A stretch of DNA of 64,000 nucleotides from an uncultured Cohaesibacter sp. (GTDB lineage Bacteria; Pseudomonadota; Alphaproteobacteria; Rhizobiales; Cohaesibacteraceae): positions 1,178,001-1,242,000 of the forward strand of contig NZ_OY781114.1 of the NCBI RefSeq assembly GCF_963676485.1. The letters run 5' to 3'. A program made the translations under genes and the position numbers. Numbering within the stretch: the first letter of the stretch is position 1; each line of letters begins with the position of its first letter. The notes below the pieces were generated by a model that saw only the letters and a program-made list of their open reading frames with translations, had not been told where the DNA came from and did no database searches. Below, piece after piece: positions 2,479-19,489 of this stretch.

Positions 2479-4425
2479 ATGCCATCTCATTCTCTTTCGC
2501 AAATTCTCATTCGCCCGGCCAATATGGACGATCTCTCCGCTCTTGTCGCGTTGGAAGAGCGCTGTTTTGCAACCGACCAAATCAGTCGCCGCTCCTTTTC
2601 TTCCTTCATGAAGACAGATACGGCCCGCCTTCTTGTGGCTATTGGTGAGCAGGACAACCTGTTTGGCTATGCCTTGATCCTCACCCGACAGGGCACATCT
2701 GTTGCGCGGCTCTATTCAATTGCCGTGGAGCCTGATGCGCGCGGGCTTGGCATCGGCTCGCAGCTTCTGGGAGGCGCTGAGGCAATCGCCAAAGAGTTGG
2801 AATGCGATCGGCTGTCGCTGGAAGTCCGCGCCGACAACAGCAAGGCCATCAGCCTTTATCAGCGCTATGGCTTCGTGCCGGAAGAAGCATTACCGGGTTA
2901 TTATGAAGATGGTGCAGATGGCCTGCGCCTCCTGCGCGTGCTCGAGCATCTGCCACATGGCTCCAAGCCAGCCAACCGGACACGTCTGCCCATCATTCTC
3001 GTGGATCAGCTCAAGGATCTGGACACACCACCAAGCGGCGCTCTGGTCATGACAGTGCGCCAGTATCTGGGACTGGAGCATGGTGTACCGGGGCGCCGTA
3101 TCATCAACCTGTCGCGTTCTTACGAGCCTTTGTCGCTTGGCTATTATTGCAGCCTTCTGGCCGAAGCGCGCAAGGAACGCAGCCTGCCTGAAGCCGATGC
3201 CCTGCTTGACATAAACTGGAAGCGCATCCATCGGCAGGCCCTTCTGCGCCTTGATCAAATGCTTGGCAGCATGCAGGACCAAAGCCTCCCCACTTCCATT
3301 GATATCTATTTCGGCCGCACCTCCGAGCGTCACTTCCGGGACATTGGCAAAACAGCCTTTGACCTGTTCCGGTGCCCTGCACTTCGCATAACTCTACAGA
3401 GAGAGGCGAAATGCAGGATCAAGGAAATTGAGGCCGTCGCCATTCACAAATTGGGTGCAGATGCAAAGCCGCGCTTCCTGTCGGCCCTCAGTGCTTTCCT
3501 CAAAGGCAGCCTGCCCAAACCATCGATCCGCAAGCAACCCTCCGCCGTTGTCGCCATTCTTGCCAATCCGGAAGAGGAGAGCCCACCGAGCGATGCCAAG
3601 GCGCTGGAAGCTTTTGCTGCCGCAGCTGAAACCGTGGATGCTCGGGCTGACTTTATCACTGCGAAGGATTTCGGACGTCTGCTCGAGTTTGATGCCCTGT
3701 TCATTCGCGAGACAACAGCACTCAACCATCATACCTATCGCTTTGCCAAGCGGGCACAGCGCGAGGGAATGCCGGTGATTGATGATCCGCACTCAATCCT
3801 TTGCTGCACCAACAAGATCTATCTGGCTGAACTGCTCAAATCCAACCGGATTCTGACACCCCAAACAACGATCTTTGACCGGCCGCGCCTGAAGCTGCTC
3901 GCCGACCAGTTCGAATTCCCCGGCATCCTGAAGATACCCGATGGCTGCTTTTCGAAGGGCGTACACAAGGTGTCGAGCCGCGATGAGCTGACCGAGCTCA
4001 GCAAATCGCTTTTCCGCAAGACCGATCTGCTGATGATTCAAGAATTCATGCCGACCGATTTCGACTGGCGGATCGGCGTGCTCGACGGAGAAGCCCTTTA
4101 TGCCTGCAAATATTACATGGTGAGCGGCAACTGGAAAATCTACGAATATGAAAGCGATGGCTCGATCCAGTCTGGCGACTCCGAAACCATGCCCATCTCT
4201 GCCGTGCCGCGCGATGTGATTGAAACCGCTATTCGCGGCACACGCCTGATTGGCAACGGCTTTTACGGTGTAGACATCAAGGAGACTCCGAAGGGGCCGT
4301 GCATTATCGAAATCAATGACAATCCATCCGTTGATTACGGCATTGAGGATGATGTGCTTGGGGCCGATCTCTATCAGCGCCTCATGGCGGTTCTGGTCAG
4401 TCGCATCGGACGGACGCGCGCTTAA
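2479..4425 (+). CDS. GNAT acetyltransferase fused to RimK-like N-domain and ATP-grasp ligase
   Basis: About 648 aa in three parts. Residues 1-155 form a GNAT fold similar to RimI, with the acetyl-CoA loop ARGLGIGSQLL and a C-terminal NSKAISLYQRYGF motif. Residues 165-350 resemble the RimK-like ATP-grasp N-terminal domain (conserved YYCSLLAEARKERSLPEAD). Residues 370-648 are an ATP-grasp ligase: FPGILKIPDGCFSKGVHKV for nucleotide binding, the FDWRIGVLDGE strand, and IIEINDNP for metal binding. RimK-type enzymes join amino acids to a carboxylate; GNAT domains acetylate amines. A combined role in making or modifying a peptide is plausible but unproven. An in-frame GTG lies 9 bases upstream (2470); neither start has a strong ribosome site. 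The gene stands alone. Confidence 0.85.
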   Translation: MPSHSLSQILIRPANMDDLSALVALEERCFATDQISRRSFSSFMKTDTARLLVAIGEQDNLFGYALILTRQGTSVARLYSIAVEPDARGLGIGSQLLGGAEAIAKELECDRLSLEVRADNSKAISLYQRYGFVPEEALPGYYEDGADGLRLLRVLEHLPHGSKPANRTRLPIILVDQLKDLDTPPSGALVMTVRQYLGLEHGVPGRRIINLSRSYEPLSLGYYCSLLAEARKERSLPEADALLDINWKRIHRQALLRLDQMLGSMQDQSLPTSIDIYFGRTSERHFRDIGKTAFDLFRCPALRITLQREAKCRIKEIEAVAIHKLGADAKPRFLSALSAFLKGSLPKPSIRKQPSAVVAILANPEEESPPSDAKALEAFAAAAETVDARADFITAKDFGRLLEFDALFIRETTALNHHTYRFAKRAQREGMPVIDDPHSILCCTNKIYLAELLKSNRILTPQTTIFDRPRLKLLADQFEFPGILKIPDGCFSKGVHKVSSRDELTELSKSLFRKTDLLMIQEFMPTDFDWRIGVLDGEALYACKYYMVSGNWKIYEYESDGSIQSGDSETMPISAVPRDVIETAIRGTRLIGNGFYGVDIKETPKGPCIIEINDNPSVDYGIEDDVLGADLYQRLMAVLVSRIGRTRA

Positions 4426-4501: not shown

Positions 4502-5449
4502 TTAAACAATCTGGTATTTCTCGATAATGGCGCGCAGGGCCTCTTCCTGTGCGCTGCTTGTCCGCGGAAAGGGCTGGCGCCCGAGGCCGACGCTGTTGTC
4601 CAGCAAGTGCAGCAGCTGTTTGACACAAAGGGTCATCGGCCCCAGCGCCAGCAGATCGGATCGCAGCTCTGAAAGAAGGGATTGCCATTTGAGCGCCTCC
4701 TTATTGCTGCCATTGGCAAAGGTGAGGCGCAGATTATTGAGCGTGCGAGGCATAATATTGCCCAAATCAGACATGCATCCCGCAGCCCCGCGGGAAAATG
4801 CCTCAAAGATAAGGGCCTCCGTGCCCGCATAATGCGCGAAATCCTCATTTTCTGCCGCGATATCCAGATAAGCATGCATCCGGGCCACATCAGCACCATT
4901 GTCCTTGATACCCTTGATATTCTCATGGGACGCCAGTTGCTCGACAACCTGAGGCGAGAGCGGACGCATGGTAATGGCTGGTGCATTGTATAGATAGACC
5001 GGCATCTGCAGGCTGTCGGCAACCTTGCTATAGTGAAGAAGGACATCTTCATCCGGGCAATCAACGAAATATGGGGCAAGCACTGTCGCACCATCTACCC
5101 CTAGGCCAGAAATATCCTTGCCCACCAGAATGGACTGATAGGTGGAGGGCATGCCGATATTGGCCAGCACCTTGACACGTCCATCCGCTTCTTCAATGAT
5201 TTCGGCACATAGACGTACTTTTTCGGCGTGGGTGAGGCAGGTGAAATCCCCCTGCGTGTCACACACCAGAATGTTGTTGCCGAAGCCGATCTGTCGCCGG
5301 ACCTGATTTCTCACCGCAGCATAATTGATCGTGTCATCGGCGTTAAAACAGGTGACAATGGCGACATAAGCCTCGACGTTGGCGGCCTCTCGGGGTGTCT
5401 CCGGCACCATATCCGGCGATTCCTGCTTTGCTATGGGGAGATCTTCCAT
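4502..5449 (-). CDS. DHDPS/N-acetylneuraminate lyase-family aldolase
   Basis: 315 aa, a class I Schiff-base lyase of the DapA/NanA superfamily. The catalytic lysine is K182 in IKGIKDN and the proton-relay tyrosine is Y154 in YLYNAPA. The usual GTTGE loop near residue 64 is changed to DTQGDF, so its substrate differs from DapA's. The first ~25 residues are a polar extension. I set the start at ATG (MEDLPIAK), 1 bp after the stop of the kinase gene; a longer open frame continues upstream only inside the kinase. It is the last gene of the eight-gene operon starting at 13712. Members of the family cleave or dehydrate 2-keto acids; here the product of the kinase may be its substrate, which is inference. 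Confidence 0.88.
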   Translation of the reverse strand: MEDLPIAKQESPDMVPETPREAANVEAYVAIVTCFNADDTINYAAVRNQVRRQIGFGNNILVCDTQGDFTCLTHAEKVRLCAEIIEEADGRVKVLANIGMPSTYQSILVGKDISGLGVDGATVLAPYFVDCPDEDVLLHYSKVADSLQMPVYLYNAPAITMRPLSPQVVEQLASHENIKGIKDNGADVARMHAYLDIAAENEDFAHYAGTEALIFEAFSRGAAGCMSDLGNIMPRTLNNLRLTFANGSNKEALKWQSLLSELRSDLLALGPMTLCVKQLLHLLDNSVGLGRQPFPRTSSAQEEALRAIIEKYQIV

Positions 5450-5450
5450 C

Positions 5451-6722
5451 TCATTGCGCTTTTCTGATGGGGATGCATGTTTGGGCCTGAATATCCAGCA
5501 GCACGGCGTCATCGCCAAAACCGCCAGCCTTGGAGATGAACCATTGCACATCGACCTTGTCGGACTGACAGGCACCGAGCACCACGCCGGGCAGAAGCTC
5601 GTCGACAAGATCAATGGCGGTAATGCCCAGTGCTGAGGCAACGGAAATGGCTGTTTCACCGCCCGTACAGAACACGGTTTTGCAATGATGGGTCTGGCAG
5701 AGCTCAAGCGCGACCTGCCCGACCAGAGCTGCGATACGCGCGCCCTCCTCTTTGCTGATCCGCTCAGCGACGCAACTGTTATCCATGCGCAATAGCATGT
5801 CACCAAATCCGCCACAAACTGCCTCACTTTGCGCGCGGCATAGCCCGGCGACATCCTCCGGTTCGACATCTGGCTGCAGCATGATGGATTGATAATCTCC
5901 CAACTTTTCCGCTGCGTCTGCCTGCCGCAAAGAGGGTTTGGCAAGGCTCCCGACGATCGCAAGCAGCGGGCCTTCAAGAGCAACTCTCCGCGGCTCGGTG
6001 GATCTGCTTTCCGTTGCTGCAAGCGAAGCCGCAAGCGCTCTGGCAAATCCCCCCGCGCCCACTGGCAGGCAGTCTGTCAACAATCCTGCTTTTGCCAGCG
6101 CAGCCAGATGACACTCCGTCATCGCATCGGCAATGATCAGGCGGCTTCCCGCATGAATATGTGCCTTGATGGTCGACACAAGCGCCTCCTCTCCGGCGTC
6201 GATATCAGCAATACGCAGCCCTGCAGTGGCAAAGTGCGACTGTTGACCGAGCATGTTGGCGATGTTCGATGTTGCTAGCGGATGGAAAGGATCTTTTCCA
6301 ATATCTGTCTCATGCAGAGGCACGCCGAACAGATAGATCATTCCGTTGCGGCATGTGCGTCCGGTTTCGGGCATGGCGGTACAAATAAGAGCAGCGGCTT
6401 TGCCGGTTGCCTTGAGGGCTGCCTCTATTTCGGCGCCGGGATTGCCCCGCATGGTGGAATCGATCTTCTTGTAAAAGCGGTCATATCCCTGTCTGCGGCA
6501 AATGCCGATCAAATTGGCCACTGTGGCGGCGGCCTCATCAGGAGCCAGAAAACGGGTTTCGGAATTGATGGAAATGTTGCCTTCCAGCAATCTTGCGTCC
6601 CGCGGAGACGGAAACTGCAGGAGCAGTTTGACCTTCTTGCCAACCCGCGAGAAATGAACACCGGAATCTCCTGCGCCGGTGAAGTCATCTGCGATGATCG
6701 CCAGTTTCTGATCCTGTCTCAC
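5451..6722 (-). CDS. DUF1537 four-carbon acid sugar kinase family protein
   Basis: 423 aa, full length for the family. The N-terminal domain begins with the diagnostic LAIIADDFTGAGDSG, and the C-terminal nucleotide-binding domain carries FCTGGETAISVASALG and ends with the ISKAGGFGDDAVL motif. Characterised members are cytoplasmic ATP-dependent kinases for D-threonate, L-erythronate or 2-oxo-tetronates, producing 4-phosphates that a dehydrogenase or aldolase then breaks down. No PdxA2- or OtnC-like partner is encoded nearby; the partner here is a DHDPS-family lyase, an unusual pairing. It lies between the sialidase-like gene and the lyase in one operon. Confidence 0.9.
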   Translation of the reverse strand: MRQDQKLAIIADDFTGAGDSGVHFSRVGKKVKLLLQFPSPRDARLLEGNISINSETRFLAPDEAAATVANLIGICRRQGYDRFYKKIDSTMRGNPGAEIEAALKATGKAAALICTAMPETGRTCRNGMIYLFGVPLHETDIGKDPFHPLATSNIANMLGQQSHFATAGLRIADIDAGEEALVSTIKAHIHAGSRLIIADAMTECHLAALAKAGLLTDCLPVGAGGFARALAASLAATESRSTEPRRVALEGPLLAIVGSLAKPSLRQADAAEKLGDYQSIMLQPDVEPEDVAGLCRAQSEAVCGGFGDMLLRMDNSCVAERISKEEGARIAALVGQVALELCQTHHCKTVFCTGGETAISVASALGITAIDLVDELLPGVVLGACQSDKVDVQWFISKAGGFGDDAVLLDIQAQTCIPIRKAQ

Positions 6723-6809
6723 ATGGTCCCCCTACAAAGTTCCAAGCCCGTTTCTTGTCTCTTCAAGCCTTCTTCAGGAATGCGCCTATTCCCATGGCAT
6801 CTGTCAAAC

Positions 6810-7883
6810 TCACATGCTCAGCGTGACATGCTTGATATAGTCGCGCAGGTAGGAGTAGCTGATCTGCAAACGCCCATCCGATGTCTCAATGATCGAGGGA
6901 TAGGAATAGTCCCCACGGAATGCCCCCTCTTTGTCATGGTCTGACAAGAGATGAGCATCTTCCTCCACGACCAGTTCCTCTTTCCAACTTTTTCCCAGAT
7001 CGGTTGAGCTGGCGATGATGAGCGGATTGCGCGGCACGCCCCAGATGGCGCTGTTTTCGGAGATATCGCAGGCGGCAAGAAAGGCTTCCCTATCCTGTAT
7101 CCAGGGCGGCACAGGGCTTTCGCAGGCGCGACCGGCGGCTCTGATGTGATTATAAATGATGAGCAACCGACCATCGGCAAGCTCTGTAGCCTGAATGGAG
7201 GAATTGTTGTTGGGTAGCGGCGTCGGCTCCGGCGCAGACCATGACAGGCCACCATCATCGGACACAGACCGGAAGATCGTGTCCGCCCTGCGACTGCGAT
7301 AGAAGGCCACTTTGCAGCTGGGCTGGATATTCATATGGACGCAGCCTTCGCTATGGGGCACGCCTTCAAGACGCCAACTGGCTCCGCCGTCATCGGAAAT
7401 CTGAACCAGCGAGCGATCATCACCAAAGGCATTCTTCATGCTGGAAAACCAGATCGGCAGCAACAGCTTGCCATCCGGGTTGACCACTGGCGGTTGCCGG
7501 ATGAAGGTGCCTTCTCGCTCAAACAGGGTTTCCGTCGGGGCCCAGCTCATGCCCAGATCATCAGACCGGCGCAACCGCACGTTGGCGGTTCCCTGATCGG
7601 TTTTCAATTGTGCGGTATAGAGCAGCCAGATTTGTCCTGAAGGGTGGCGAAAAAGCGCAGGATTCTGTTCGGATCGATTAGCATCGTCGCTCATTTTGAC
7701 CGCATCACTCCACGCTCTTGCGGCAGAATCGAAGCGGGAGAGATAAATACTGATGTCAGATGAGCCCTCCATGCTGCCACCGAACCAGGTGCATAGAAGG
7801 TCGCCATTTTCCAGCTCAAGAAGATTGGAAGCATGGTTGCTTGGGCATGGGGTTGGAATGGCTCTGCTCTCAACGATTTTCAT
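6810..7883 (-). CDS. Sialidase-like (BNR/Asp-box) protein, predicted cytoplasmic
   Basis: 357 aa with a six-bladed propeller signature. Four Asp-box motifs (S-x-D-x-G-x-[ST]-W) are visible at residues 107-114, 163-170, 208-215 and 293-300, and an N-terminal strand contains the NGDLLCTWFGGSMEG block typical of the BNR_2 sialidase group. No signal peptide is present, so it should act inside the cell on imported substrate, unlike secreted sialidases. The group also includes glycosidases and lyases of other specificities, so sialic acid as substrate is not established. The gene follows oppF by 151 bp and precedes the kinase by 87 bp in the sigma-54-controlled operon. Confidence 0.82.
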   Translation of the reverse strand: MKIVESRAIPTPCPSNHASNLLELENGDLLCTWFGGSMEGSSDISIYLSRFDSAARAWSDAVKMSDDANRSEQNPALFRHPSGQIWLLYTAQLKTDQGTANVRLRRSDDLGMSWAPTETLFEREGTFIRQPPVVNPDGKLLLPIWFSSMKNAFGDDRSLVQISDDGGASWRLEGVPHSEGCVHMNIQPSCKVAFYRSRRADTIFRSVSDDGGLSWSAPEPTPLPNNNSSIQATELADGRLLIIYNHIRAAGRACESPVPPWIQDREAFLAACDISENSAIWGVPRNPLIIASSTDLGKSWKEELVVEEDAHLLSDHDKEGAFRGDYSYPSIIETSDGRLQISYSYLRDYIKHVTLSM

Positions 7884-8034
7884 GGACGTACCCGGCTTTG
7901 CTAAGTGAACGGCGCCCTATAAGACGCGCGGCTAAAAGGCATAAACAGATCATGTGCACGGACGAAAGTGATTGGGCTACCCGCCCGTGCCTTTGTTCTT
8001 CAATTGGACCATTGAGCCCCCTCAAGGGACGAGG

Positions 8035-9060
8035 TCAGGCGTCTTCAGTTTCCTGTTTCTCTTCCCTGGCAATCTCGTCCAGACGCAGGCAGGCGACCTG
8101 ATGTCCATTCCCATGATCTTCCAGTTCGGGTACGGCTTGAGAACAGGCTTCCGTTGCATAGGCACAGCGCGGATGGAACCGGCAGCCGCTTGGCGGATCA
8201 ATGGCGTTGGAGACATCCCCCTTGAGGATGACCCGCTGGCGCTGGCGTTCAATGTCCGGATCGGCCTCCGGCACGGCCGAGAGCAACGCCTTGGTGTAGG
8301 GGTGCAGCGGCCGCTTGAACAGATCCTTCTTCTCGGCGATCTCCATGATCTTGCCCAGATACATCACCGCAATCCGGTCGCTGATATGGCGCACAACCGC
8401 CAGATCATGCGCGATGAAGAGATAGGTGAGATTGTATTTTTCCTGAATATCCATCAGAAGATTGATGATCTGAGCCTGAATGGACACATCAAGCGCTGAA
8501 ATCGGCTCATCACAGACGATGAATTCAGGATCGCACGCAAGAGCCCGGGCAATGCAGATCCTCTGACGCTGCCCACCGGAGAATTCATGCGGATATCGAT
8601 TGGCCACATTGGGGTTGAGCCCGACATCGCGAATGAGTTGGGCAATCCGCCCCTGGATCTCACTATCAGGGCAGATCTTATGAACCTTCATCGGTTCTGC
8701 CAGCGCTTCGCCAATGGTCATGCGCGGGTTGAGCGTTGAGTAGGGATCCTGAAAGACGATCTGAGCCCGCTTGCGCATGGCGCGCAATTCCTGCTTGGAT
8801 AGGGAAGCCAGATCGACCCCTTCAAATTCGACACTTCCGGACGTGGAGCGATAGATTTGCAGGATCGTGAAGCCAGTTGTCGATTTGCCGCATCCGGACT
8901 CGCCCACGAGCCCCAGGGTCTCGCCCTTGAATATATCGAAACTGACATCATCGATGGCATGCACCACCGCTTTCTCACTTCCGAAAGCGCCGATCTTGAT
9001 GGGGAAATATTTGACGAGATTCTTCACCTTAACCAGTGGCTGCTTGGCTGCGATTGTCAT
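8035..9060 (-). CDS. Oligopeptide/dipeptide-type ABC transporter ATPase (OppF/DppF-like)
   Basis: 341 aa. Walker A GESGCGKST, the signature LSGGQ-type motif (FSGGQRQR), and Walker B FIVCDEPISALD are intact, and the C-terminal oligopeptide/dipeptide extension carries a cysteine cluster (CRFHPRCAYATEAC) typical of OppD/DppF proteins. It powers the importer encoded upstream. Its ATG overlaps the oppD stop by 4 bp (ATGA). Confidence 0.95.
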   Translation of the reverse strand: MTIAAKQPLVKVKNLVKYFPIKIGAFGSEKAVVHAIDDVSFDIFKGETLGLVGESGCGKSTTGFTILQIYRSTSGSVEFEGVDLASLSKQELRAMRKRAQIVFQDPYSTLNPRMTIGEALAEPMKVHKICPDSEIQGRIAQLIRDVGLNPNVANRYPHEFSGGQRQRICIARALACDPEFIVCDEPISALDVSIQAQIINLLMDIQEKYNLTYLFIAHDLAVVRHISDRIAVMYLGKIMEIAEKKDLFKRPLHPYTKALLSAVPEADPDIERQRQRVILKGDVSNAIDPPSGCRFHPRCAYATEACSQAVPELEDHGNGHQVACLRLDEIAREEKQETEDA

Positions 9061-10076
9061 TGCGTCCCCCCCTCTTTGGGCTCAACACTCTCTTTGGTTA
9101 CATCCACCCAGCAGGCGATGCGGTGTTGCGGATTGGCGCCAACTCCGGAAACAGGCTCCAGAGGCGGGATCTCCTTTGTGCAACGCTCAGTGCGATAGGT
9201 GCAGCGGGCAGCGAAAGGACAGCTTTGTGGCTCCACAAACAGGTTTGGTGGTGCTCCGGCGATGGAAGGAAGGCGGCTTCCGGCCTCTGTCTTGGTGCTC
9301 GGGATCGATTTGAGCAAGCCGATGGTGTAGGGATGGCGCGGGTTTTTATAGATCTCATCCAGTGGTGCCTCTTCCACCACGCTGCCGCCATACATGACCA
9401 TGATACGGTCCACCATGCCAGCCAGCAGGCTGAGGTCATGGGTGATCCAGATGATCGACATATTGAGCTTTTCGCGCAGTTCCTTGACCAGTTCCACGAT
9501 CTGGGCCTGAATGGTCACATCAAGAGCCGTGGTCGGCTCGTCGGCAATCACCAGATCCGGCTCCCCCAGCAACGCCATGGCGATCATCACGCGCTGACGC
9601 ATGCCGCCTGAAAGCTGATGCGGATATTCATGCAAGCGATGCTCGCTGTTGGAAATCCCCACCAGATCGAGATATTTGGCCGCCTGCTTCATGGCATCGG
9701 CCCGGCTTATCTTCTTGTGATAGACGATCCCTTCGCAAAGCTGGGCTCCGATCTTCATGAACGGATTGAGCGAGGTCATGGGGTCCTGAAAGATCATGCC
9801 AACCTTGGAGCCGCGCACCATATTGATCTCGCTGGCGCTGGCCTTGGCCAGATCCTTTCCTTCCAGCAGGACCTCTCCATCTGTAATCTGGGCGGCTGGC
9901 GGCAGCAGCTTGATAAGGCTCATCATGGATACGCTCTTGCCGCATCCGGATTCACCAACCACGCCGAGCATTTCCCCCTTGTCGAGGGTGAAAGAAACAC
10001 CATTTACCGCGTAAAGATAGCCATTGCGCACCTTGAAGCGCGTATGCAGATTGTTCACTTCCAAAAGTTTGGTCAA
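9057..10076 (-). CDS. Oligopeptide/dipeptide-type ABC transporter ATPase (OppD/DppD-like)
   Basis: 339 aa. Walker A GESGCGKSVS, the signature LSGGMRQR, Walker B LVIADEPTTALD and the C-terminal Cys-rich motif (CPFAARCTYRTERC) are all present. The start is a TTG at 10074-10076, supported by a GGGAGGG ribosome site at normal spacing. It forms the ATPase heterodimer with the next gene. Confidence 0.95.
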   Translation of the reverse strand: MTKLLEVNNLHTRFKVRNGYLYAVNGVSFTLDKGEMLGVVGESGCGKSVSMMSLIKLLPPAAQITDGEVLLEGKDLAKASASEINMVRGSKVGMIFQDPMTSLNPFMKIGAQLCEGIVYHKKISRADAMKQAAKYLDLVGISNSEHRLHEYPHQLSGGMRQRVMIAMALLGEPDLVIADEPTTALDVTIQAQIVELVKELREKLNMSIIWITHDLSLLAGMVDRIMVMYGGSVVEEAPLDEIYKNPRHPYTIGLLKSIPSTKTEAGSRLPSIAGAPPNLFVEPQSCPFAARCTYRTERCTKEIPPLEPVSGVGANPQHRIACWVDVTKESVEPKEGGTQ

Positions 10077-10107
10077 AGCGCCCTCCCTTTAGCTGTTCGT
10101 TGTGTCT

Positions 10108-11061
10108 CTATTTCCATTGCCGCGGATTGAGCGCATCGTTGAGGCCGTCGCCCAGGAAACTGAAAGCGATGGTGACCAACGCAAGCACTGCGGCAGGCGC
10201 TGCGAGAATGTGCGGATAGAGCTGCCAGACGCGCAATCCATCCGAGATCATGTTGCCCCAACTGGGGATTGGAGGACGCACGCCAACACCGAGGAAGGAG
10301 AAGGACGATTCAAAGACCATGGCTTCCCCAAGGGCGGCACTGATATAGACAATGATCGGCCCGAGAGAGTTGGGAATGACATATTTCCAGACGATCTTGG
10401 TGGTTGGAACACCTATGGCTTCAGCGGCCAGCACATAGTTCTTGTTGCGTACCGACATGATCTGGCCACGAATGATGCGGGCAGCCTTTGGCCACTTGAT
10501 CAGGGCAAGAGAGCCGAACACCAGAACGAAGTCCACCAGAATGGTATTCCGATAAAAGGCGTTCCCCGTAAGCAGGAATTGCTCATCCATCCAGTTGACC
10601 AGCCTCGGCTTCATCGAGACGTTGATGACGATCACCAGCAGCAGGGATGGCACCGACATGGTGATGTCGATGAGCCAGACGATGAAGGCATCGATCTTGC
10701 CACCGAAATAGCCACCCAGAGAGCCCATAAAAATGCCGATGACCAGGCTGAGCAAGGTGGTTGAAAAGGCGACGATTACGGCGGTTCTTGCGCCATAGAT
10801 CACACGGCTCATGATATCGCGCCCCAGATCATCGGTGCCGAACCAATGGACCAGACTTGGCGCCTGATTGCGGGCATGCAAATCCTGCGACAAGAAGTCA
10901 TAAGGAGTGATATAGGGGCCGAAAATGGCGATGAAGAACAGGAACAGCACCAGCAGCATGCCGATCACGGCCAACTTGTTGGCGATCAGTCGGTCAAAGG
11001 CATCCTTGGCCAGACTGAACTGCTTCTCTTCCTGTTGCAGCTCAAGAATATTGTCCGTCAT
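10108..11061 (-). CDS. Oligopeptide-type ABC transporter permease (DppC/OppC-like)
   Basis: 317 aa inner-membrane permease. A cytoplasmic N-terminal tail with DAFDRLIANKLAVIGM is followed by the first helix, a periplasmic loop with HWFGTDDLGRDIMSRVIYG (hallmark of OppC-type subunits) and the cytoplasmic EAA loop (AAEAIGVPTTKIVWKYVIPN). Its start overlaps the preceding permease stop by one base (TAATG). Confidence 0.94.
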   Translation of the reverse strand: MTDNILELQQEEKQFSLAKDAFDRLIANKLAVIGMLLVLFLFFIAIFGPYITPYDFLSQDLHARNQAPSLVHWFGTDDLGRDIMSRVIYGARTAVIVAFSTTLLSLVIGIFMGSLGGYFGGKIDAFIVWLIDITMSVPSLLLVIVINVSMKPRLVNWMDEQFLLTGNAFYRNTILVDFVLVFGSLALIKWPKAARIIRGQIMSVRNKNYVLAAEAIGVPTTKIVWKYVIPNSLGPIIVYISAALGEAMVFESSFSFLGVGVRPPIPSWGNMISDGLRVWQLYPHILAAPAAVLALVTIAFSFLGDGLNDALNPRQWK

Positions 11062-12017
11062 TATTCGTCTCCTGTCTTTTTGGCTGCCGCGCGGGGATCC
11101 AGCAGCGGATAGGAAATATCAACCAGCAGGTTGGAAGCCATGACCACCGTCGAGAAGATCAACACGATCGCCAGAATGACCGGATAGTCCGAGGTCTTGA
11201 TTGCGGTTTCGGTGAGGCGGCCAAGGCCGGGAAGCCCGAAGACCTTTTCAATGAGAATGGAATTGTTGAGCGTGGCAATCACCAGAAGGCCGATCTGGCT
11301 GACAACAGGCGTCAGCACAGGGCGCATGATATGCTTGACCACGACCTGATAATTCGGAATGCCTTTGGCGCGCGCGGTGCGCACATAATCTTCACTGAGC
11401 ACCTCAAGCACACCGGCACGGGCCTGACGGATGATCAGGGCCATGGGGTTCAACCCCAGAACCAGCAGGGGGACAATCACCTTGAAACTGAGCAGGCCGC
11501 TCCAGCCGTAAGGCACGTCCATATCCATGACCAGCACGAGAAACACGATGATCAGCGGACCGGCAACGAAAACCGGAATGCCCCAGACGATGAGGGCAAA
11601 GCCTACAATCAGGTTATCCAGAATCTTGTTCTGGTTGAGGGCGGCAATCACCCCCAGAATGATGCCAATGATGGAGAGCAGGAAAATCGCGGTAAGCCCG
11701 ATCTTTAGGGTCACCGGCAGCGCTGCGCTGATCATCGAATTGACCGAACGCCCGGAAACCAGCGAGTTGCCGAAATTCCCGTGGGCGATATTGCCAAGAT
11801 AATCCATGAACTGGACCAGAAACGGTCGGTTCAGGCCTGCCGCATCCCTGATGGCTTCCACCCTGTCCGGATCATAAGCCACATCGCCCGGAGCCTGCAG
11901 GAAGATAAGCTTGATCGGATCGCCAGCTCCAAAAAACACGAGAGCGTAAATTAACAAAAGAAGAATAAAAACCGAAGGAACCCACTTCAGAAGTCGGAAT
12001 AAGATGTAGCGCCCCAT
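11061..12017 (-). CDS. Oligopeptide-type ABC transporter permease (DppB/OppB-like)
   Basis: 318 aa with the N-terminal hydrophobic helix and RLLKWVPSVFILLLLIYALVF-type start of DppB subunits, a large periplasmic loop, and the EAA motif (TARAKGIPNYQVVVKHIMRP) ahead of the last helices. It pairs with the following permease to form the channel. A stem-loop with a U-tract (12049-12079) separates it from the binding-protein gene and probably lowers its expression relative to that gene. Confidence 0.94.
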   Translation of the reverse strand: MGRYILFRLLKWVPSVFILLLLIYALVFFGAGDPIKLIFLQAPGDVAYDPDRVEAIRDAAGLNRPFLVQFMDYLGNIAHGNFGNSLVSGRSVNSMISAALPVTLKIGLTAIFLLSIIGIILGVIAALNQNKILDNLIVGFALIVWGIPVFVAGPLIIVFLVLVMDMDVPYGWSGLLSFKVIVPLLVLGLNPMALIIRQARAGVLEVLSEDYVRTARAKGIPNYQVVVKHIMRPVLTPVVSQIGLLVIATLNNSILIEKVFGLPGLGRLTETAIKTSDYPVILAIVLIFSTVVMASNLLVDISYPLLDPRAAAKKTGDE

Positions 12018-12048
12018 ATCAAGTCATCCTTGCGTATTCGGGAAAAAT

Positions 12049-12079
12049 GGACGGGAAGTGAGACCACCACGACCCGTCC
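12049..12079 (-). terminator. Stem-loop attenuator between binding protein and permease genes
   Basis: GGACGGG and CCCGTCC (7-bp stem, 17-nt loop), followed on the minus strand by ATTTTT. Such partial terminators are common after solute-binding-protein genes, which are needed in excess over the membrane subunits. Confidence 0.55.
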
Positions 12080-12092
12080 AGGTTCGCCGTCC

Positions 12093-13712
12093 TTACGGAC
12101 GTTTTTCTTCGTCGATGGTGACATTCCAAGGTTCGATGACCTGCCAGTCATCATTCTTGTCGAAATTCATGACCCATGGCATGGCCCATTTCGACATCAC
12201 GTCGTAGTAATAAGGAATGTAGGTCCAGTCTTCGCGGAAGAGACGCTGTGCTTCCTGCGCAAGTTTGATGCGATCGGGATCTTTCACACCCTTGACGGAT
12301 GCTTCTTCGAGCAAGGCATCAATCTTGTCATTTTTGTAGCCACCCAACTTGTTGCGGGCGTTGCCGGACTTCGAATAGATCGAGCCCATCAGGTAGGAAA
12401 CCGCATCGGGGACGCGCGTGCCAACATCATCGCGGAAGATCTGAACGCTCTTCTGGTCAGGCCCGGAATAGGTTTCGATGGCCGGTTTCATTTCAATGCC
12501 CTGAATGCCAAGAATCTTGCGCCATTGTTCAGCGATATATTGGGCAGCGGCTTCATGGGTCGGCGTGGAAATACCAACAAACATGATTTTTGGCAGGCGG
12601 CTGGCATCTTTATATTTGGATGCAGCAAGGGCCGCTTTGGCAGCTTCAGGATCAAATGGGTACTTCTTGAAGTCCGGATCCACACCAGGCACCTTGTTGA
12701 GGATCTGGGATGCAACGGTGAACGGACCATCAGGGAAAGCTGCAAGAGCGAGTTCTTCAGGATTGATGGACATGATCAGTGCCTTGCGCACATTGATGTC
12801 GTCCATTGGAGGCTTCTTGGCGTTGATCCAGAAATGCTGGCCTTTGGCGAGCGCCGGGCCACCAAGGAAGTCTGGCCCCAGATCCTGAATGATCGTTGGC
12901 GTAATCAGCTCGGTATGGGCATCCATCGTGCCGCGCTTGAGCATCAGGGTTGCTGTGCTGGCGTCAGCCACGGTGGTCAAGATGATTTTTTTGAGTTTGG
13001 GTTTCGGGCCGAAGAAATTCGGGTTCGGTACGAGTGTTAGAACACCCTGATCAAGGTCGATGGATTCAGGCATGAAGGGACCGGAAACAACGACGCCATT
13101 CTGCGGCATCCACCAATCGGATTTTTCATTGCCGTTTTCATCTTGCGCCTGCGAAATTTTTACCGGCGCGATCAGTGCTGTTGCGATTTTCTGGTCAAAG
13201 ATCGGATCGGCGCTTGCGAGTTTGACGCTGATTGTTGCGTCGTCCTTGATGGCCAGACCGGTCATGTCCTGCGCTTTGCCGACGACCACGTCGTTAAAGC
13301 CTTCAACGCCCCCCAGAAACAGATTGATGCGAGCGTGCTTGGTTGCCGGACGAGCGGACAGGTTCCATGTCCCCACGACATCTTCGGCGGTGATCTTGGA
13401 GCCATCAGACCAGACGGCATCCGGATTGACGTGCAGGGTCCAGTTGACATAGCTGTCATCGGACTCAACGCTTGAAAGAACGTAAGGGGTCAGCTTACCG
13501 TCCTTATCGAAATACATTGGGGCAGCCCAGCTGAGAGATTGCCAGCGCGCCGCGTGTCCTCCTCCCTGAAGGGGCGACCAGTTCTGCTGCAAAACGGGGT
13601 GGGCAATATTGAGCACCTGGCCATCTTCGGCCGATGCCTGGCCACTTTGCAGCGGCGTCAGCCCGAGCACTGAAAGCCCGAGCAAAAGGACTTTGAAAAG
13701 ATCCTTTTTCAT
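12093..13712 (-). CDS. Periplasmic solute-binding protein, family 5 (peptide/oligosaccharide type)
   Basis: 539 aa, typical for SBP_bac_5. A Sec signal peptide (MKKDLFKVLLLGLSVLGL, cleavage likely after QASA) precedes the mature domain; the WTLHVNPDAVWSDGSKITAEDV segment is diagnostic of the family. It captures substrate in the periplasm for the DppBC/OppDF complex. I chose the ATG at 13710-13712 because a GAGGAG ribosome site sits just upstream and the signal peptide starts there; the longer open frame to 13820 would run across the sigma-54 promoter. First gene of the operon. The ligand could be a peptide, an opine-like compound or an oligosaccharide. Confidence 0.93.
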   Translation of the reverse strand: MKKDLFKVLLLGLSVLGLTPLQSGQASAEDGQVLNIAHPVLQQNWSPLQGGGHAARWQSLSWAAPMYFDKDGKLTPYVLSSVESDDSYVNWTLHVNPDAVWSDGSKITAEDVVGTWNLSARPATKHARINLFLGGVEGFNDVVVGKAQDMTGLAIKDDATISVKLASADPIFDQKIATALIAPVKISQAQDENGNEKSDWWMPQNGVVVSGPFMPESIDLDQGVLTLVPNPNFFGPKPKLKKIILTTVADASTATLMLKRGTMDAHTELITPTIIQDLGPDFLGGPALAKGQHFWINAKKPPMDDINVRKALIMSINPEELALAAFPDGPFTVASQILNKVPGVDPDFKKYPFDPEAAKAALAASKYKDASRLPKIMFVGISTPTHEAAAQYIAEQWRKILGIQGIEMKPAIETYSGPDQKSVQIFRDDVGTRVPDAVSYLMGSIYSKSGNARNKLGGYKNDKIDALLEEASVKGVKDPDRIKLAQEAQRLFREDWTYIPYYYDVMSKWAMPWVMNFDKNDDWQVIEPWNVTIDEEKRP

Positions 13713-13780
13713 GTAGTTGTCTCCTCTCATTTCAACTTCGTATATGCAATGACGTTCTTGGTGCGCCTTAACGAAATTTT

Positions 13781-13796
13781 TGCAATTCGCGTGCCA
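13781..13796 (-). promoter_or_regulatory. Sigma-54 promoter (-24/-12) of the uptake operon
   Basis: Read on the minus strand the site is TGGCACGCGAATTGCA, a perfect match to TGGCAC-N5-TTGCA. Transcription should begin near 13770, about 58 nt before the binding-protein start codon. The neighbouring divergent gene encodes a sigma-54 activator, which fits. Confidence 0.88.
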
Positions 13797-13814
13797 TCCG
13801 ACTAACAAATTGAA

Positions 13815-13827
13815 AATCAAAGCCTTT
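13815..13827 (+). promoter_or_regulatory. Possible IHF site
   Basis: AATCAAAGCCTTT matches the WATCAA-N4-TTR consensus at all but the last position and lies between the palindrome and the sigma-54 promoter, where DNA bending would be expected. It is a weak motif, so the call is tentative. Confidence 0.3.
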
Positions 13828-13882
13828 TTAAATGAGCGGAAAAATAATCTGATAAGCTGCTGTGTTGTTTTGCACTAATTGT

Positions 13883-13899
13883 TGATGCGTATCGCATCA
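13883..13899. promoter_or_regulatory. Perfect palindrome, candidate upstream activating sequence
   Basis: TGATGCG-TAT-CGCATCA is a perfect 7-bp inverted repeat, about 115 bp upstream of the predicted sigma-54 start site and 67 bp before the activator gene. That is the usual place for an enhancer bound by an NtrC-class activator. Assigning it to the adjacent PrpR-like protein is inference. Confidence 0.6.
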
Positions 13900-13965
13900 G
13901 CAGTTCGTTGCAATTTCGCCCCTCCCACCGCATACTCCCCTGCGACCAGAGGGGGAGATCAGGTC

Positions 13966-15879
13966 ATGGTTATTGCGTTTATCGCGCCTTTTGAGCAGAT
14001 CCGCATCAAGGCGCAGAGCATCATCGATACATCCAATTATCCGGCCAAGGCCTATCTGGGCGATTTGCATCAGGGCGTGAAAGCAGCCAAGCGCGCACTC
14101 GACGATGGCGCCAAAATCATCATCAGCCGAGGCGGCACAGCGCGGCTGATCCGCCGTTCGCTCAAGGTGGAGGTGATCGAGGTGGAGGCCTCCATGCAAC
14201 GCACCCTCGCCTTCGTCTACAAGCAGACGACAGAGACAACGCGGATCGGCATTGTCGGTTTTTCACCTCTGATCAATCTTGTTTCCCCAGTCTGCACCAT
14301 TTTGTCGCGGAACTATCGCTCTTTCGAACTGCGCGAGAAGGAGAGCTTTCAGGAGCGGATGGATATGCTGGTGCAATGGAAGCCGGATGTTGTGATCGGA
14401 GACGCCGTGGCCTTCGAATGGGCCAAATCCAAGGGCCTTAACGCCTATCTGATCGAATCCAGCATGGAAACCATCGTTGATGCCTTCGAACGGGCCATGC
14501 TGGTCTACAAGAATCTGAACCGCTATTTTCTGGCCGAAAAGAAGCTCGAAGCCGTTCTCGACTGCACGCGGGATGGGGCCGTCCTTGTCAATAATGAGGG
14601 GCAGATCGAGGAAATCAACAAGCAAGGCTGCACGATATTGGGGCAGGATAGGGATAATCTGCTTGGAGCCAAGATTTCGGGCTTCTTCAATACTCCCGAG
14701 CTCAGCAAGGCCTTGCGCAAGAAAACCCATACCCGCAACATGATCGTCAATTGCCATGACGACAAGCTGGCATTGGACCATATTCCCGTTTCATCTACGA
14801 AGCTATCCGACAATGCCTCGGTCATTCTCTTCCAGCCGGTGCAGAAAATTCAGGATGCGGGCAATCAGATCCGCAAGAAACTGAGCGAAAGCGGCTTTTA
14901 CGCCAAATATACCTTCGAACATATCATCTATCATTGTCAGGAGATGAAGCGTTTGGTGGAGATGGCCCAGCTCTATAGCCGCACGGCCAGCAATATCATG
15001 ATTGTGGGTGAGACGGGGACCGGCAAGGAGTTGTTCGCCCAATCAATCCACAATGCTGGGACACTTTCAAATGGCCCTTTTGTGGCCGTGAACTGCGCCG
15101 CATTGCCCGGGAACCTTCTGGAAAGCGAGCTCTTCGGCTATGCGCCGGGGGCCTTTACCGGCGCCTCCCGTGGAGGCAAGATCGGTCTTTTCGAGCTGGC
15201 TCATGAAGGCACGCTGTTCCTTGATGAATTGACGGAGATGGATGTCTTCCTTCAGGCCAAGATGCTGCGCGCCCTGCAAACGGGCGAAATCATGCGGATT
15301 GGCGATAACAAGGTCATCCCGATCAATGTGCGCATCATTGCCGCGACCAACAAGAACCCGCTCGAAGCCATCAAGGCAGGCCGCTTGCGGGCCGATTTGT
15401 TCTACCGCCTCAATGTGCTGGACCTGAAAATCCCTCCCTTGCGAGACCGGAAAGGCGACCCTGAATTGCTGTTTAGCCGTTTTCTGGAAAAGGCCTGCCA
15501 TTTGCAGACTATTCCGGTGCCGCCCCTGTCTGGCAAATTGCTCAGGGAATTGCACCACCATAGCTGGCCGGGCAATGTGCGCGAACTGGAAAATTGTGCC
15601 GAAAAATTCGCGACGCTACAAAGCTTGCATGAATTCGACATGCCGCTTCTCTCATCAGAGACCCATCATATGGGACGGATATCAAATGAGAATGCCGCAT
15701 CCGAAAGCCTCCTGGAGGGAGCCACCCTTGACGACATGATCGCCGCCAAAGTGAACCAGATCTTCAAGCAGGAAAATTGCAATATCAGCAAAACGGCCCA
15801 GCGCCTTTCGATAGACCGCAACACGGTCAAACGCTGGCTCGGCAAGGACACCAAGCCACAAGGCATTGGGCCCCACTAG
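13966..15879 (+). CDS. PrpR-type sigma-54-dependent transcriptional activator
   Basis: 637 aa. Residues 1-190 resemble the PrpR N-terminal sensor domain ([13 protein letters not shown] and later [17 protein letters not shown]), then a PAS-like segment (about 195-300, [21 protein letters not shown]), then the AAA+ domain: Walker A GETGTGKE at 348-355, GAFTGA (sigma-54 contact) at 395-400, and Walker [10 protein letters not shown] Fis-type helix-turn-helix ends the protein ([19 protein letters not shown]). The start is the ATG at 13966, behind GGGGGAG. It is divergent from the uptake operon and is the likely activator of its sigma-54 promoter, sensing an intermediate through the N-terminal domain. 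Confidence 0.92.
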
Positions 15880-15928: not shown

Positions 15929-17110
15929 CTAATAGGCTTTGCCACGGGCGGATACCGGCCAGAGACATTCGACCACCCCCTTGCGCACACCCACATAATA
16001 GTCATGGATATTGCAGGTCGGATCGCAATGGCCCGGCACGAGACGCAGCTTTTCGTTGATCTTCAGAACCCCGTCCGGATCGGCAATCGTGCCGTGCTCA
16101 TCGGAACATTCCAGATAGGTTACATCATCACGGCCATAGACCTCCGGCAGGCCGCTATCAACGGACTGTACTTTGAGGCCCGCATCCACGATGGCGCGAT
16201 CTGCCTTGACATGACTCATCACTGAGGTCAGCAGGAACAGGGCATTTTCCCATTCGCCCTCATCAAGGCGTTTGCCATCTTCCGTCAGAACACGGCCATA
16301 GTCCGCATCCATGAACGCGTAAGAGCCGCATTGCAGTTCGTTGTAAACGCCCGATGTGGCTTCAAAATAATAGGACCCGGTGCCGCCGCCACCGACTATG
16401 GCGCAAGCAAGTCCTTCCTCTTCGAGCTGGGCCAAGCAGGCCTTGACCAACTGAACGGCGCTATCGATCTTGGCTTTGCGATCTGCGTAAGCGGGCGAAT
16501 GCTGCATGGAGCCCTGATAGGCTTGCAGGCCGGAGAATTTGAGGCCGTAGGCCTTGTTGATGGCCTTGGCCAGCGCCAAGACCTCTTCAGGGGTTGAGAC
16601 ACCACAGCGCCCTGCCCCGCAATCCACTTCGACCAGACATTCGATTTGCGTTTCATGAGTACGGGCCGCTTCCGAAAGCTCGTCCACATTGTCCAGCGCA
16701 TCGACACAAACGATGGTGCGTGCACCCAGCTTGGGCAAACTGGCAAGCCTGTCGATTTTGTGCGGGTCGCGCACCTGATTGGAGACAAGCACGTCGGAAA
16801 TACCGCCGCGGGCGAAGACTTCCGCTTCTGAGACCTTCTGGCAACAAACGCCGCAGGCCCCTCCCATTTCGATCTGTAGCAGCGCTATATCGACCGATTT
16901 ATGCATCTTCCCATGCAAGCGATGGCGTATGCCATGGGCCTTGATATAGGCCCCCATCTTGGCAATGTTCCTTTCCAATGCATCAAGATCCAGAACAAGA
17001 CAAGGGGTCTGAATATCGGCTTCCTTCATCCCCGGGCGGGCGGGGATATCAAATCCGACATCAAGATGCTCGATCTCGAGATGCTCAATATTTTCGACGG
17101 GGGTCACCAC
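15929..17110 (-). CDS. bhcC: 3-hydroxy-D-aspartate aldolase-like PLP enzyme (DSD1/D-threonine aldolase family)
   Basis: 393 aa. Fold-type III PLP enzyme with an alanine-racemase-like barrel: PLP lysine K71 in HGKMHKSVD, GGGGTGSYYFE and ELQCGSYAFMDADYG in the barrel, and the metal site GHCDPTCNIHD near the C-terminus. From memory of the family it is extremely close along its whole length to BhcC of the beta-hydroxyaspartate cycle, which splits 3-hydroxy-D-aspartate to glyoxylate and glycine; I could not run an alignment. The start is GTG with AGGAA upstream. The other cycle genes (bhcA, bhcB, bhcD) are not in the window. It converges on the sigma-54 activator gene with a 49-bp gap. Confidence 0.85.
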   Translation of the reverse strand: MVTPVENIEHLEIEHLDVGFDIPARPGMKEADIQTPCLVLDLDALERNIAKMGAYIKAHGIRHRLHGKMHKSVDIALLQIEMGGACGVCCQKVSEAEVFARGGISDVLVSNQVRDPHKIDRLASLPKLGARTIVCVDALDNVDELSEAARTHETQIECLVEVDCGAGRCGVSTPEEVLALAKAINKAYGLKFSGLQAYQGSMQHSPAYADRKAKIDSAVQLVKACLAQLEEEGLACAIVGGGGTGSYYFEATSGVYNELQCGSYAFMDADYGRVLTEDGKRLDEGEWENALFLLTSVMSHVKADRAIVDAGLKVQSVDSGLPEVYGRDDVTYLECSDEHGTIADPDGVLKINEKLRLVPGHCDPTCNIHDYYVGVRKGVVECLWPVSARGKAY

Positions 17111-17333
17111 TCTATTCCTTCTGACTGACTTGCTGAGGGATTGATTGCCTTACTTATTGTTTTTAAGGGACAACAGACCTCAGGTCGCAAGCCGGTGTCA
17201 ACAGGGCTAGTACGGATATCGAGCTGCCGTTTAACGGCTCCACAGCACAAGTGCACAAAAAGAAGGGCCGGCAGTGAGCCGACCCAGTTTGCTTTCCAAT
17301 TATATATTGTTGATAGGCTTTACTCTTCTGCCA

Positions 17334-18533
17334 TCAGCGAGATGAAAGAGCCGCCAGGATACCGCGCAATTCAGCCAACCCCTTGAGGCGGCCAATGGCA
17401 GGATAGCCCGGTTGCGCCTTGCGCTTCTGATCATCGAGAATATCAAGACCATGATCAGGCCGCATGGGGATAGACCAATCCTCACGACCTTCTTTCTTTC
17501 GCCTTGCCTCTTCATCCAGAGCCGCTTGCATGAGGGCAACCATGTCCACATTGCCACCTAGATGTTCGGCTTCATAGAATGAGCCCTTGATCGCGTCGCT
17601 TTCCAGCGCCACGTTGCGCAAATGCAGAAAATGCACCCGATCGCCAAGGCGTTTCATCATGCCGGGCAGATCGTTGTCCGGGCGCGCACCAAGTGAGCCG
17701 GAGCAGAGCGTGATGCCATTGGCCGGAATGTCGACCGCATCCATCATATATTTGTAGTCTGCCTCGGTGGACATGATCCGCGGTAGGCCCAGAAGTCCGA
17801 ACGGGGGGTCATCTGGGTGGCAGCACAGGCGCAACCCAAGGGTCTGGGCGACAGGTGCCACTTCTTCCAGAAAAGCGACAAAATGGTTGCGCAATTGCTC
17901 TTCAGAAATATTGTCATATTCGGCGAGGTTGGCCCGCACATTTGCCATGGAGGGCGCTTCGGCATCTCCGGGCAGACCATAGATGATTGATCCGGCCAAC
18001 AGCTCGCGACCAGCTTCATCAAGGCGTTCGAAACGGACCTTGGCTTCTTCAATCACATCGGCGGGGAAATCCTCCTTTGCGCCTGCCCTTTCCAGAATGA
18101 AAAGATCAAAGGCCGCAAAGTCGATCAGATCGAATCGCATGCAGGTGGCCCCGGTCTGCAGCCGATAGGTCAGATCGGTCCGCGTCCAGTCCAGCACCGG
18201 CATGAAGTTATAGCAGATGACCTTGATCCCTGCGTCTGCCAGATGGCGCATGCTCTGTTTGTAATTTTCGATATGGGTGTGCCAATTGCCTTTCTGCTGC
18301 TTGATGTCTTCAGAAACGGGCAGGCTTTCCACGACTTCCCAGGCGAGGCCAGAAGGGGATCCGTCCTTTTTGCACGCGATGAGCTGCTGGCGCGCCGCAA
18401 TTTCATCCGGGCTCCAGATGTCTCCGGTTGGAATGTGATGCAGGGCGCTGACCACTCCTTCCACTCCGGCCTGAAGCATGTCCTCAATCCCAACTCGATC
18501 CTGAGGACCGAACCACCGCCACGTCTGACGCAT
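17334..18533 (-). CDS. uxuA: Mannonate dehydratase
   Basis: 399 aa, full length. It dehydrates D-mannonate to 2-keto-3-deoxy-D-gluconate in hexuronate catabolism, using a divalent metal. Diagnostic stretches: MRQTWRWFGPQDRV at the start, WEVVESLPVSEDIK, CCHPDDPPFGLLGLPRI and CSGSLGARPDND, with metal ligands expected in the CHPDDP, HLRN and RPDHG segments. The start is the ATG at 18531-18533 with GGGAG upstream; 14 more codons are open but lack support. It is divergent from the gntR-TRAP-uxuB operon, so both arms probably share one control region. Confidence 0.95.
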   Translation of the reverse strand: MRQTWRWFGPQDRVGIEDMLQAGVEGVVSALHHIPTGDIWSPDEIAARQQLIACKKDGSPSGLAWEVVESLPVSEDIKQQKGNWHTHIENYKQSMRHLADAGIKVICYNFMPVLDWTRTDLTYRLQTGATCMRFDLIDFAAFDLFILERAGAKEDFPADVIEEAKVRFERLDEAGRELLAGSIIYGLPGDAEAPSMANVRANLAEYDNISEEQLRNHFVAFLEEVAPVAQTLGLRLCCHPDDPPFGLLGLPRIMSTEADYKYMMDAVDIPANGITLCSGSLGARPDNDLPGMMKRLGDRVHFLHLRNVALESDAIKGSFYEAEHLGGNVDMVALMQAALDEEARRKKEGREDWSIPMRPDHGLDILDDQKRKAQPGYPAIGRLKGLAELRGILAALSSR

Positions 18534-18702
18534 TTGCCGTCTCCCGTATGTTGTTCTTGGCGCCCAACAGTCCAAGCTCGGGCGGACAAGGGCGCATGAC
18601 CGGTTATCCCGGTGTATTTTGAAACGGCTGCAATAGACATATGGTCCAATGCCTTTGCGCTTGGTTGCCGCGTTATACCATTCTTATCACAGCCATAGCC
18701 GG

Positions 18703-18732
18703 TTGACAAGTATGGTAGTATGCCGGTATGGT
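18703..18732 (+). promoter_or_regulatory. Promoter of the gntR-TRAP-uxuB operon with operator-like repeats
   Basis: TTGACA (18703-18708), 18-bp spacer, TATGGT (18727-18732). Two copies of GTATGGT (18710-18716 and 18726-18732) overlap it and an inverted ATACCAT lies at 18675-18681; these are plausible half-sites for the GntR regulator encoded 24 bp downstream. The promoter elements are seen; their use is inferred. Confidence 0.6.
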
Positions 18733-18755
18733 GGTTTGCAATTGGAGGATAGCTT

Positions 18756-19460: not shown

Positions 19461-19489
19461 TCCCCATCGACAATGACTGGGAGGAATAC

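Follow-up and report, generated by a model that had tools for sequence, protein, structure and literature searches.

Relation to described systems

Kinases of the DUF1537 family act together with PdxA2 on tetronic acids, in a chemistry (that of DtnK and PdxA2) which ends in dihydroxyacetone phosphate (DHAP). The nan system of sialic-acid catabolism uses a sialidase, the NanA lyase, the NanQ/YhcH anomerase and a sugar kinase. Here we describe an operon, within a stretch of 64,000 nucleotides (the window) of an uncultured Cohaesibacter genome of 5.08 Mb, that encodes an Opp-type transporter, a sialidase-fold Asp-box protein, a DUF1537 kinase and a lyase of the DHDPS family. The operon may well provide one half, that of uptake and entry, of a pathway that handles a 2-keto-3-deoxy sugar acid, the other half being encoded at a second locus of the same genome. 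The imported compound would be a sialic-acid-like sugar acid, probably of plant origin; the pathway is apparently widely scattered in bacteria and, as far as our searches of open PubMed Central papers go, undescribed.

D-threonate catabolism resembles this system in its DUF1537 kinase and PdxA-family partner, in the expected DHAP end and in the best model of the kinase, which is D-threonate kinase. It differs in that an aldolase, an iron-containing alcohol dehydrogenase (Fe-ADH) and a sialidase-fold enzyme are added here, that the set is split over two loci, and that the scores fall below the cut-offs of the DtnK and D-threonate 4-phosphate dehydrogenase models. The likeness to nan catabolism lies in the sialidase fold, a lyase of the N-acetylneuraminate lyase (NAL) superfamily, a kinase and, in the loci of some relatives, a YhcH-family gene; unlike nan, the sialidase-fold enzyme is here cytoplasmic with altered residues, the kinase is of the four-carbon-acid type, and the usual partners are PdxA and Fe-ADH.

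Organization of the operon

The gene list, coordinates and families given in a preliminary description of this DNA all agree with our gene calls and Pfam matches. Eight minus-strand genes, with spacings between neighbours that range from small overlaps up to 151 bp, plausibly form one operon, with an activator gene divergent from it:

4502..5449, minus strand: class I lyase of the DHDPS/NAL superfamily (PF00701, 164 bits)
5451..6722, minus strand: DUF1537 (four-carbon acid sugar) kinase (PF07005, 176.8 bits, and PF17042, 60.9 bits, both domains above the Pfam cut-off)
6810..7883, minus strand: BNR_2/Asp-box protein, a cytoplasmic sialidase-fold enzyme (PF13088, 220 bits)
8035..9060, minus strand: OppF-type ABC ATPase (family models)
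9057..10076, minus strand: OppD-type ABC ATPase (family models)
10108..11061, minus strand: DppC/OppC-type permease (family models)
11061..12017, minus strand: DppB/OppB-type permease (family models)
12093..13712, minus strand: SBP_bac_5 periplasmic binding protein with a signal-peptide-like N-terminus (Pfam)
13782..13796, minus strand: sigma-54 site TGGCACGCGAATTGC, 70 bp upstream of the binding-protein start
13883..13899, no strand assigned: palindrome TGATGCGTATCGCATCA (7+7), 103 bp upstream of the sigma-54 site
13966..15879, plus strand: divergent activator with PrpR_N, PAS and sigma-54 domains (Pfam)

The nearest named relative found, Cohaesibacter haloalkalitolerans, has the same operon, with an Asp-box protein 87% identical to that of the window.

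The transporter taken by itself might suggest plain uptake of oligopeptides or dipeptides, the enzyme genes being unrelated acquisitions of the operon. The best PDB sequence matches of the binding protein are OppA proteins that bind peptides (mostly peptide-binding overall), and the permeases and ATPases match Opp and nickel models. However, no transporter protein reaches a curated cut-off among the matches considered (OppF comes close to one subfamily model, at 405.1 against 408 bits), there is no peptidase among the Pfam matches of the operon, and the same enzymes travel elsewhere with unrelated transporters. Such an operon is mismatched to the gene neighbourhoods described below, and we consider this explanation highly unlikely.

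Conserved gene neighbourhoods in relatives

Relatives were sought with a query alignment of 12 Asp-box proteins, that of the window and 11 from plasmids, ten of the latter with DHDPS and Fe-ADH genes nearby. The scan covered one genome per species, and the 80 loci discussed here (L040 to L119) are the best 80 of at least 580 confirmed Asp-box relatives. Presence of a family denotes phmmer similarity to a few references at E 1e-10 rather than orthology, a loose measure for the short-chain dehydrogenases/reductases (SDR) and ABC proteins; one divergent DUF1537 kinase, in L041, was missed by phmmer and recovered by Pfam.

The Asp-box gene, DHDPS, DUF1537 kinase, PdxA and Fe-ADH occur together in 55 of the 80 loci. 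Counted singly, DHDPS is present in 65, DUF1537 in 64, PdxA and Fe-ADH in 61 each, an SDR-like protein in 60 and YhcH in 27. Among the 65 loci longer than 21 kb the corresponding counts are 56 for DHDPS, 54 for DUF1537 and 52 each for PdxA and Fe-ADH. Asp-box homologues are also found in 311 plasmid records; in 11 annotated plasmid regions, whose gene tables are incomplete, DHDPS and Fe-ADH accompany the Asp-box gene in ten, and the kinase and PdxA in eight each. On pRL9 of the symbiotic Rhizobium johnstonii 3841, at RL_RS26360-26405, the Asp-box gene lies in a single locus with DHDPS, Fe-ADH, PdxA and DUF1537 kinase genes and an Opp-type transporter. Five distant BNR_2 genes from the same class, 27-32% identical, served as a control: over about 20 kb (about 10 kb on each side) none of the five has any of the four partners, whereas a 41% identical homologue has all four. 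The co-occurrence of the lyase, kinase and Asp-box families in other genomes, on which the preliminary description had staked its reading, is thereby upheld, and its suggestion that an imported sugar-acid-like compound is broken down in the cytoplasm fits these neighbourhoods. The holders of the gene set include rhizobia, Pantoea, Pectobacterium, Klebsiella, Bacillus and others.

Some variations on this arrangement were noted in passing. A group of regulator-like open reading frames (ORFs), DeoR-like by eye, is found in 42 of the 80 loci and precedes the Asp-box gene by a median distance of about 6 kb. Seven loci (L055, L061, L063, L064, L068, L096 and L103) have an SSS transporter beside the Asp-box gene and an SDR, sometimes with YhcH; the aldolase, kinase, PdxA and Fe-ADH were not detected near this module, and the SDR match in L064 is weak.

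A second locus with PdxA and Fe-ADH

A search of the genome for homologues of PdxA and Fe-ADH led to a second locus at 4.409-4.419 Mb, which encodes a DUF1537 kinase, an FCD-type regulator, PdxA, a 2-hydroxyacid dehydrogenase, DHDPS, the transporter proteins TctA and TctC, and Fe-ADH. The Fe-ADH gene lies at 4.418 Mb and that of PdxA, which is additional to the housekeeping PdxA, at 4.41 Mb. These enzymes resemble those of the Asp-box clusters elsewhere: PdxA and Fe-ADH share 61% and 54% identity with their counterparts in the R. johnstonii cluster, against 39% and 32% for the next paralogues in the genome; DHDPS shares 72% with its counterpart in the Sinorhizobium meliloti Asp-box cluster, and the kinase 34-36% with the kinases of rhizobial clusters. 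The second-locus PdxA also passes the general PdxA model (351 against 290 bits). The SDR reference has only a weak match (28%) among the own-genome loci compared. By these similarities, the conserved gene set is split over two loci in this genome.

The preliminary description had remarked that no PdxA2-type partner is present. This holds for the operon and fails both for the genome and for most of the relatives' loci (61 of 80); the candidate explanation that the genome has no PdxA partner is ruled out by the second-locus gene, and the idea that the kinase works without one finds no support. The suspicion of an unfamiliar route was a fair one, with a premise, a kinase lacking PdxA, that is wrong for the genome.

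Both loci are kept in the same layout in three members of the genus. In a profile of 20 genomes of the family, the 11 that have the Asp-box gene all have close orthologues of the second-locus Fe-ADH (81-100%) and PdxA (85-100%); the nine lacking it divide into three with both (Fe-ADH 74-77%, PdxA 65-81%) and six with neither. One of the negative genomes is 64% and another 87% complete, and one genome carries 8% contamination. The one-sided probability of the association is 0.002 for the family as a whole and 0.011 for the genus alone, both uncorrected for kinship. In this sample the second-locus genes can be present without the Asp-box gene, while the Asp-box gene is never present without them, which makes the operon look like a feeder. 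In the genus members L144, L145 and L146 the PdxA match spans one in-frame TGA.

The sialidase-fold enzyme and the lyase

Asp-box propellers have varied functions. That of the window has the six-bladed propeller fold of sialidases and matches the Pfam BNR Asp-box, and its best PDB sequence match is pneumococcal NanC. Its N-terminus is not hydrophobic, in agreement with the earlier statement that it has no signal peptide: the highest Kyte-Doolittle mean over 12 residues is 0.64, whereas the binding protein reaches 2.41. It shares with sialidases of glycoside hydrolase family 33 (GH33), including NanC, the fold, the Asp-box and one triad arginine (NanC Arg600 corresponds to window Arg196 in a hidden Markov model (HMM) alignment); Tyr328 and another arginine, Arg285, are candidate counterparts placed by motif spacing only. 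It differs from them in that NanC Glu584, the partner of the catalytic tyrosine, aligns in the HMM alignment with His183 of the window protein, a histidine in 80 of 80 relatives, and in that the first triad position shows no arginine (Asn16/His17, by motif spacing). We infer that the protein is a glycosidase or a glycal hydratase acting on an ulosonic or ulosaric acid. Another PDB match of the Asp-box profile, 5mqr (E 0.005), is BT1020, for which no tie to 3-deoxy-2-heptulosaric acid (Dha), a candidate substrate discussed below, could be made; the text available of the paper cited for it names it as a GH142 arabinofuranosidase.

On the structure assumed here, daucic acid is the glycal (2,3-dehydro) counterpart of Dha. 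A variant of the proposed pathway would start from daucic acid as a free plant dicarboxylic acid, which the sialidase-fold enzyme would hydrate to the keto-deoxy acid rather than cleave a glycoside, the route being otherwise the same. The replacement of the GH33 catalytic glutamate by an invariant histidine is in keeping with this, as are the transporters of SSS (48 of 80) and tripartite tricarboxylate type (11 of 80), which would suit a small acid. NanC, the best PDB sequence match, hydrates Neu5Ac2en to N-acetylneuraminic acid (Neu5Ac) according to the accessible part of PMC4646021. On the other hand, the Opp transporter of the window suits larger ligands, and the structure and stereochemistry used here for daucic acid are assumed, the cited papers, in the text available, giving the compound by name only. 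We regard the variant as rather improbable.

The lyase has the Schiff-base lysine (Lys182) and active-site tyrosine (Tyr154), which are present in all 65 cluster DHDPS proteins; in these, the asparagine of the GTNGE loop is found in 54 (threonine in 10) and a serine two residues past the lysine in 64. The latter two residues correspond to Asn78 and Ser198 of human 4-hydroxy-2-oxoglutarate aldolase (HOGA), which shares the DHDPS fold and in which, in the sections available of PMC3188589, they were studied by docking and mutation as residues for the distal carboxylate and the 4-hydroxyl. Their conservation in the cluster aldolases favours a dicarboxylic 4-hydroxy-2-keto acid; the substrate proposed below is two carbons longer than that of HOGA. 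The second-locus DHDPS has both Asn and Ser, whereas the window copy has Gln66 and Asn184. The DTQGD loop to which Gln66 belongs departs from the cluster form in an operon shared with conserved partners. Ten DHDPS matches were found in the genome, and among the eight compared, including that of the window (two had no locus), the nearest paralogue of the window lyase is that of the second locus, at 43%. NCBIfam cut-offs are not reached by the window lyase for NanA (83 against 382 bits), PRK04147 (111 against 281) or DapA (157 against 206).

These scores bear on a further alternative, ordinary catabolism of a sialic acid of the Neu5Ac type with the DUF1537 kinase in place of NanK. It would account for the sialidase fold, the NAL-superfamily lyase, the Opp-type transporter and the YhcH-family gene of relatives. 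However, the lyase falls far below the N-acetylneuraminate lyase cut-offs (PRK04147 and NanA), the GH33 active-site residues are altered, the usual partners are PdxA and Fe-ADH, and a six-carbon amino sugar is mismatched to a four-carbon-acid kinase working with PdxA. On this evidence, which covers the operon and its usual partners, the alternative is clearly unlikely.

Promoter and regulation

The sigma-54 site TGGCACGCGAATTGC is the sole exact match within the 64 kb, where 0.19 would be expected; a scan allowing one mismatch was uninformative (12 found, 8.06 expected). A tighter related pattern has one match in the whole genome and, because a backward control also gave one, this rarity is weak proof. 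Conservation does more: all five relatives examined, namely C. haloalkalitolerans (L040), three genus members (L154, L155 and L156) and Pleomorphomonas (L043), retain the site upstream of the gene for the binding protein, and its spacer bases differ from those of the window. The consensus sigma-54 promoter and divergent PrpR-type activator of the preliminary description are thus corroborated by the exact site, its conservation, the sigma-54 domain of the activator and the RpoN encoded in the genome.

The palindrome TGATGCGTATCGCATCA occurs at one place in the genome (none in the backward control), and TGATGC-N5-GCATCA lies 104 bp upstream of the sigma-54 site in L040, L154 and L156, not being found in the other two relatives, L043 and L155. 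It is a likely candidate for the activator site. Only its exact form and its position count, because a search that tolerates as many as two mismatches gives no more than the chance number in the window (1 found, 0.81 expected). The activator gave no helix-turn-helix match in the Pfam scan at 0.001. Sigma-70 sites did not exceed chance (4 against a mean of 6.4), and terminator-like sites numbered 12 against 9.5. Joint control of the operon and the second locus is unsupported, since the second-locus fragment (L024) contains neither the palindrome nor a sigma-54 site; the second locus has its own FCD-type regulator.

A possible pathway and its substrate

In the pathway that we propose, the sigma-54 promoter and PrpR_N activator seen in the sequence would control the Opp-type transporter, which would import a compound carrying the acid in bound or dehydrated form. 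The cytoplasmic sialidase-fold enzyme would free the acid, and the DHDPS-family aldolase would split it into pyruvate and a four-carbon (C4) semialdehyde. This would be reduced by the second-locus Fe-ADH to a tetronic acid (the direction of the reaction being itself part of the proposal), phosphorylated by the DUF1537 kinase to the 4-phosphate, and converted to DHAP through oxidative decarboxylation by the second-locus PdxA-family enzyme, a putative PdxA2 by its context. We give this general scheme an even chance of being correct.

An aldolase that yields pyruvate and a C4 fragment implies a C7 substrate, and the presence of an alcohol dehydrogenase rather than an aldehyde oxidase suggests a C4 aldehyde that already carries a carboxylate, and with it a heptaric acid. 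In the Fischer projection, C4, C5 and C6 of the D-lyxo configuration point left, left and right, and retro-aldol cleavage frees C4-C7; when C4 is reduced and the carboxylate is turned to the top, C2 points left and C3 right, the configuration of D-threonate. As parent acid, Dha or daucic acid, its 2,3-dehydro form, is a possible, though tentative, choice. In plants Dha is known, in the text available of the source, only from rhamnogalacturonan II. The YhcH-family gene in relatives, a gene group that includes a GH28 protein and is present in 6 of the 80 loci, and the hexuronate-type genes adjoining the operon provide context for such a substrate, and none of them proves it.

The adjoining genes, at 15929-24070 beside the activator, encode a D-serine-dehydratase-like protein, a UxuA mannonate dehydratase, a 269-aa ORF, TRAP DctP and DctM and a mannitol-dehydrogenase-family (UxuB-like) protein, and by these families look like a hexuronate catabolic cluster. 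On the other side of the operon, and convergent with it, positions 2470-4425 encode a 651-aa fusion of a GNAT acetyltransferase and a RimK-like ATP-grasp protein (RLAN).

A number of observations weigh against the proposed pathway, or against the part assigned in it to the window's own enzymes. The loop of the window lyase reads DTQGD, against GTNGE or GTTGE in nearly all cluster relatives, and KDN stands in place of the usual KDS; in HOGA, the change of Asn78 to Gln raises KM 25-fold (PMC3188589, in the sections available), and Gln and Asn at the two places count against an identical role for this copy. The working aldolase may instead be the DHDPS of the second locus. More than one DHDPS subgroup is used by the clusters, that of R. 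johnstonii being only 25% identical to the window's. The best NCBIfam model of the window kinase, D-threonate kinase, is matched at 235 bits (equivalog cut-off 450), and this kinase is about 33% identical to the rhizobial cluster kinases over 39% of the length and 30% identical to that of Comamonadaceae; among the references, it is nevertheless the one that the kinases in many enterobacterial clusters match best. The second-locus PdxA scores 293 against 583 bits with the D-threonate 4-phosphate dehydrogenase model. The second-locus Fe-ADH passes no model, its best being choline dehydrogenase GbsB (225 against 550 bits), and since those it matches (lactaldehyde reductase, ErcA, GbsB and 4-hydroxybutyrate dehydrogenase) all lie below cut-off, they fix neither direction nor substrate. 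The weak matches of kinase and Fe-ADH lower our trust in the general scheme. As to the neighbourhoods, transporter types vary (SSS in 48 loci, tripartite tricarboxylate in 11 and a family-5 binding protein in 11), the Asp-box gene stands without any of the other four in 11 of the 80 loci, and the SDR-family matches of 60 loci have no place in the scheme. Few members of the class have the gene (7 of the 289 genomes sampled, at E 1e-10, and only two of these above 40% identity), and the holders Halomonas, Oceanobacillus and Marinobacterium are not obviously plant-associated.

Several of these points could be accommodated by another route to or from a 2-keto-3-deoxy or C4 acid, starting, for example, from some other heptulosonic acid or from a tetronic acid in glycosylated or esterified form, in which the Asp-box protein would be a lyase or isomerase. 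The SDR of 60 loci hints at a different chemistry, as does a gene of the fumarylacetoacetate (FAA) hydrolase family that follows the DUF1537 kinase and a GntR regulator in two loci (L042:3741-4562 and L043:13299-14069), hinting at an alternative 2,4-diketo route; the lyase and kinase of the window also diverge from the cluster norm. Such a route would offer no explanation for the YhcH-family gene, for the HOGA-like residues that most aldolases of the clusters have, or for the D-threonate stereochemistry, and we consider it conceivable but doubtful.

The Asp-box genes of the relatives are annotated as 'exo-alpha-sialidase' or 'glycosyl hydrolase', names which, if the proposed pathway is correct, are misleading. 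The pathway would also account for the DUF1537 kinases that are found beside lyases, and the fate of Dha would become directly testable in soil and plant bacteria.

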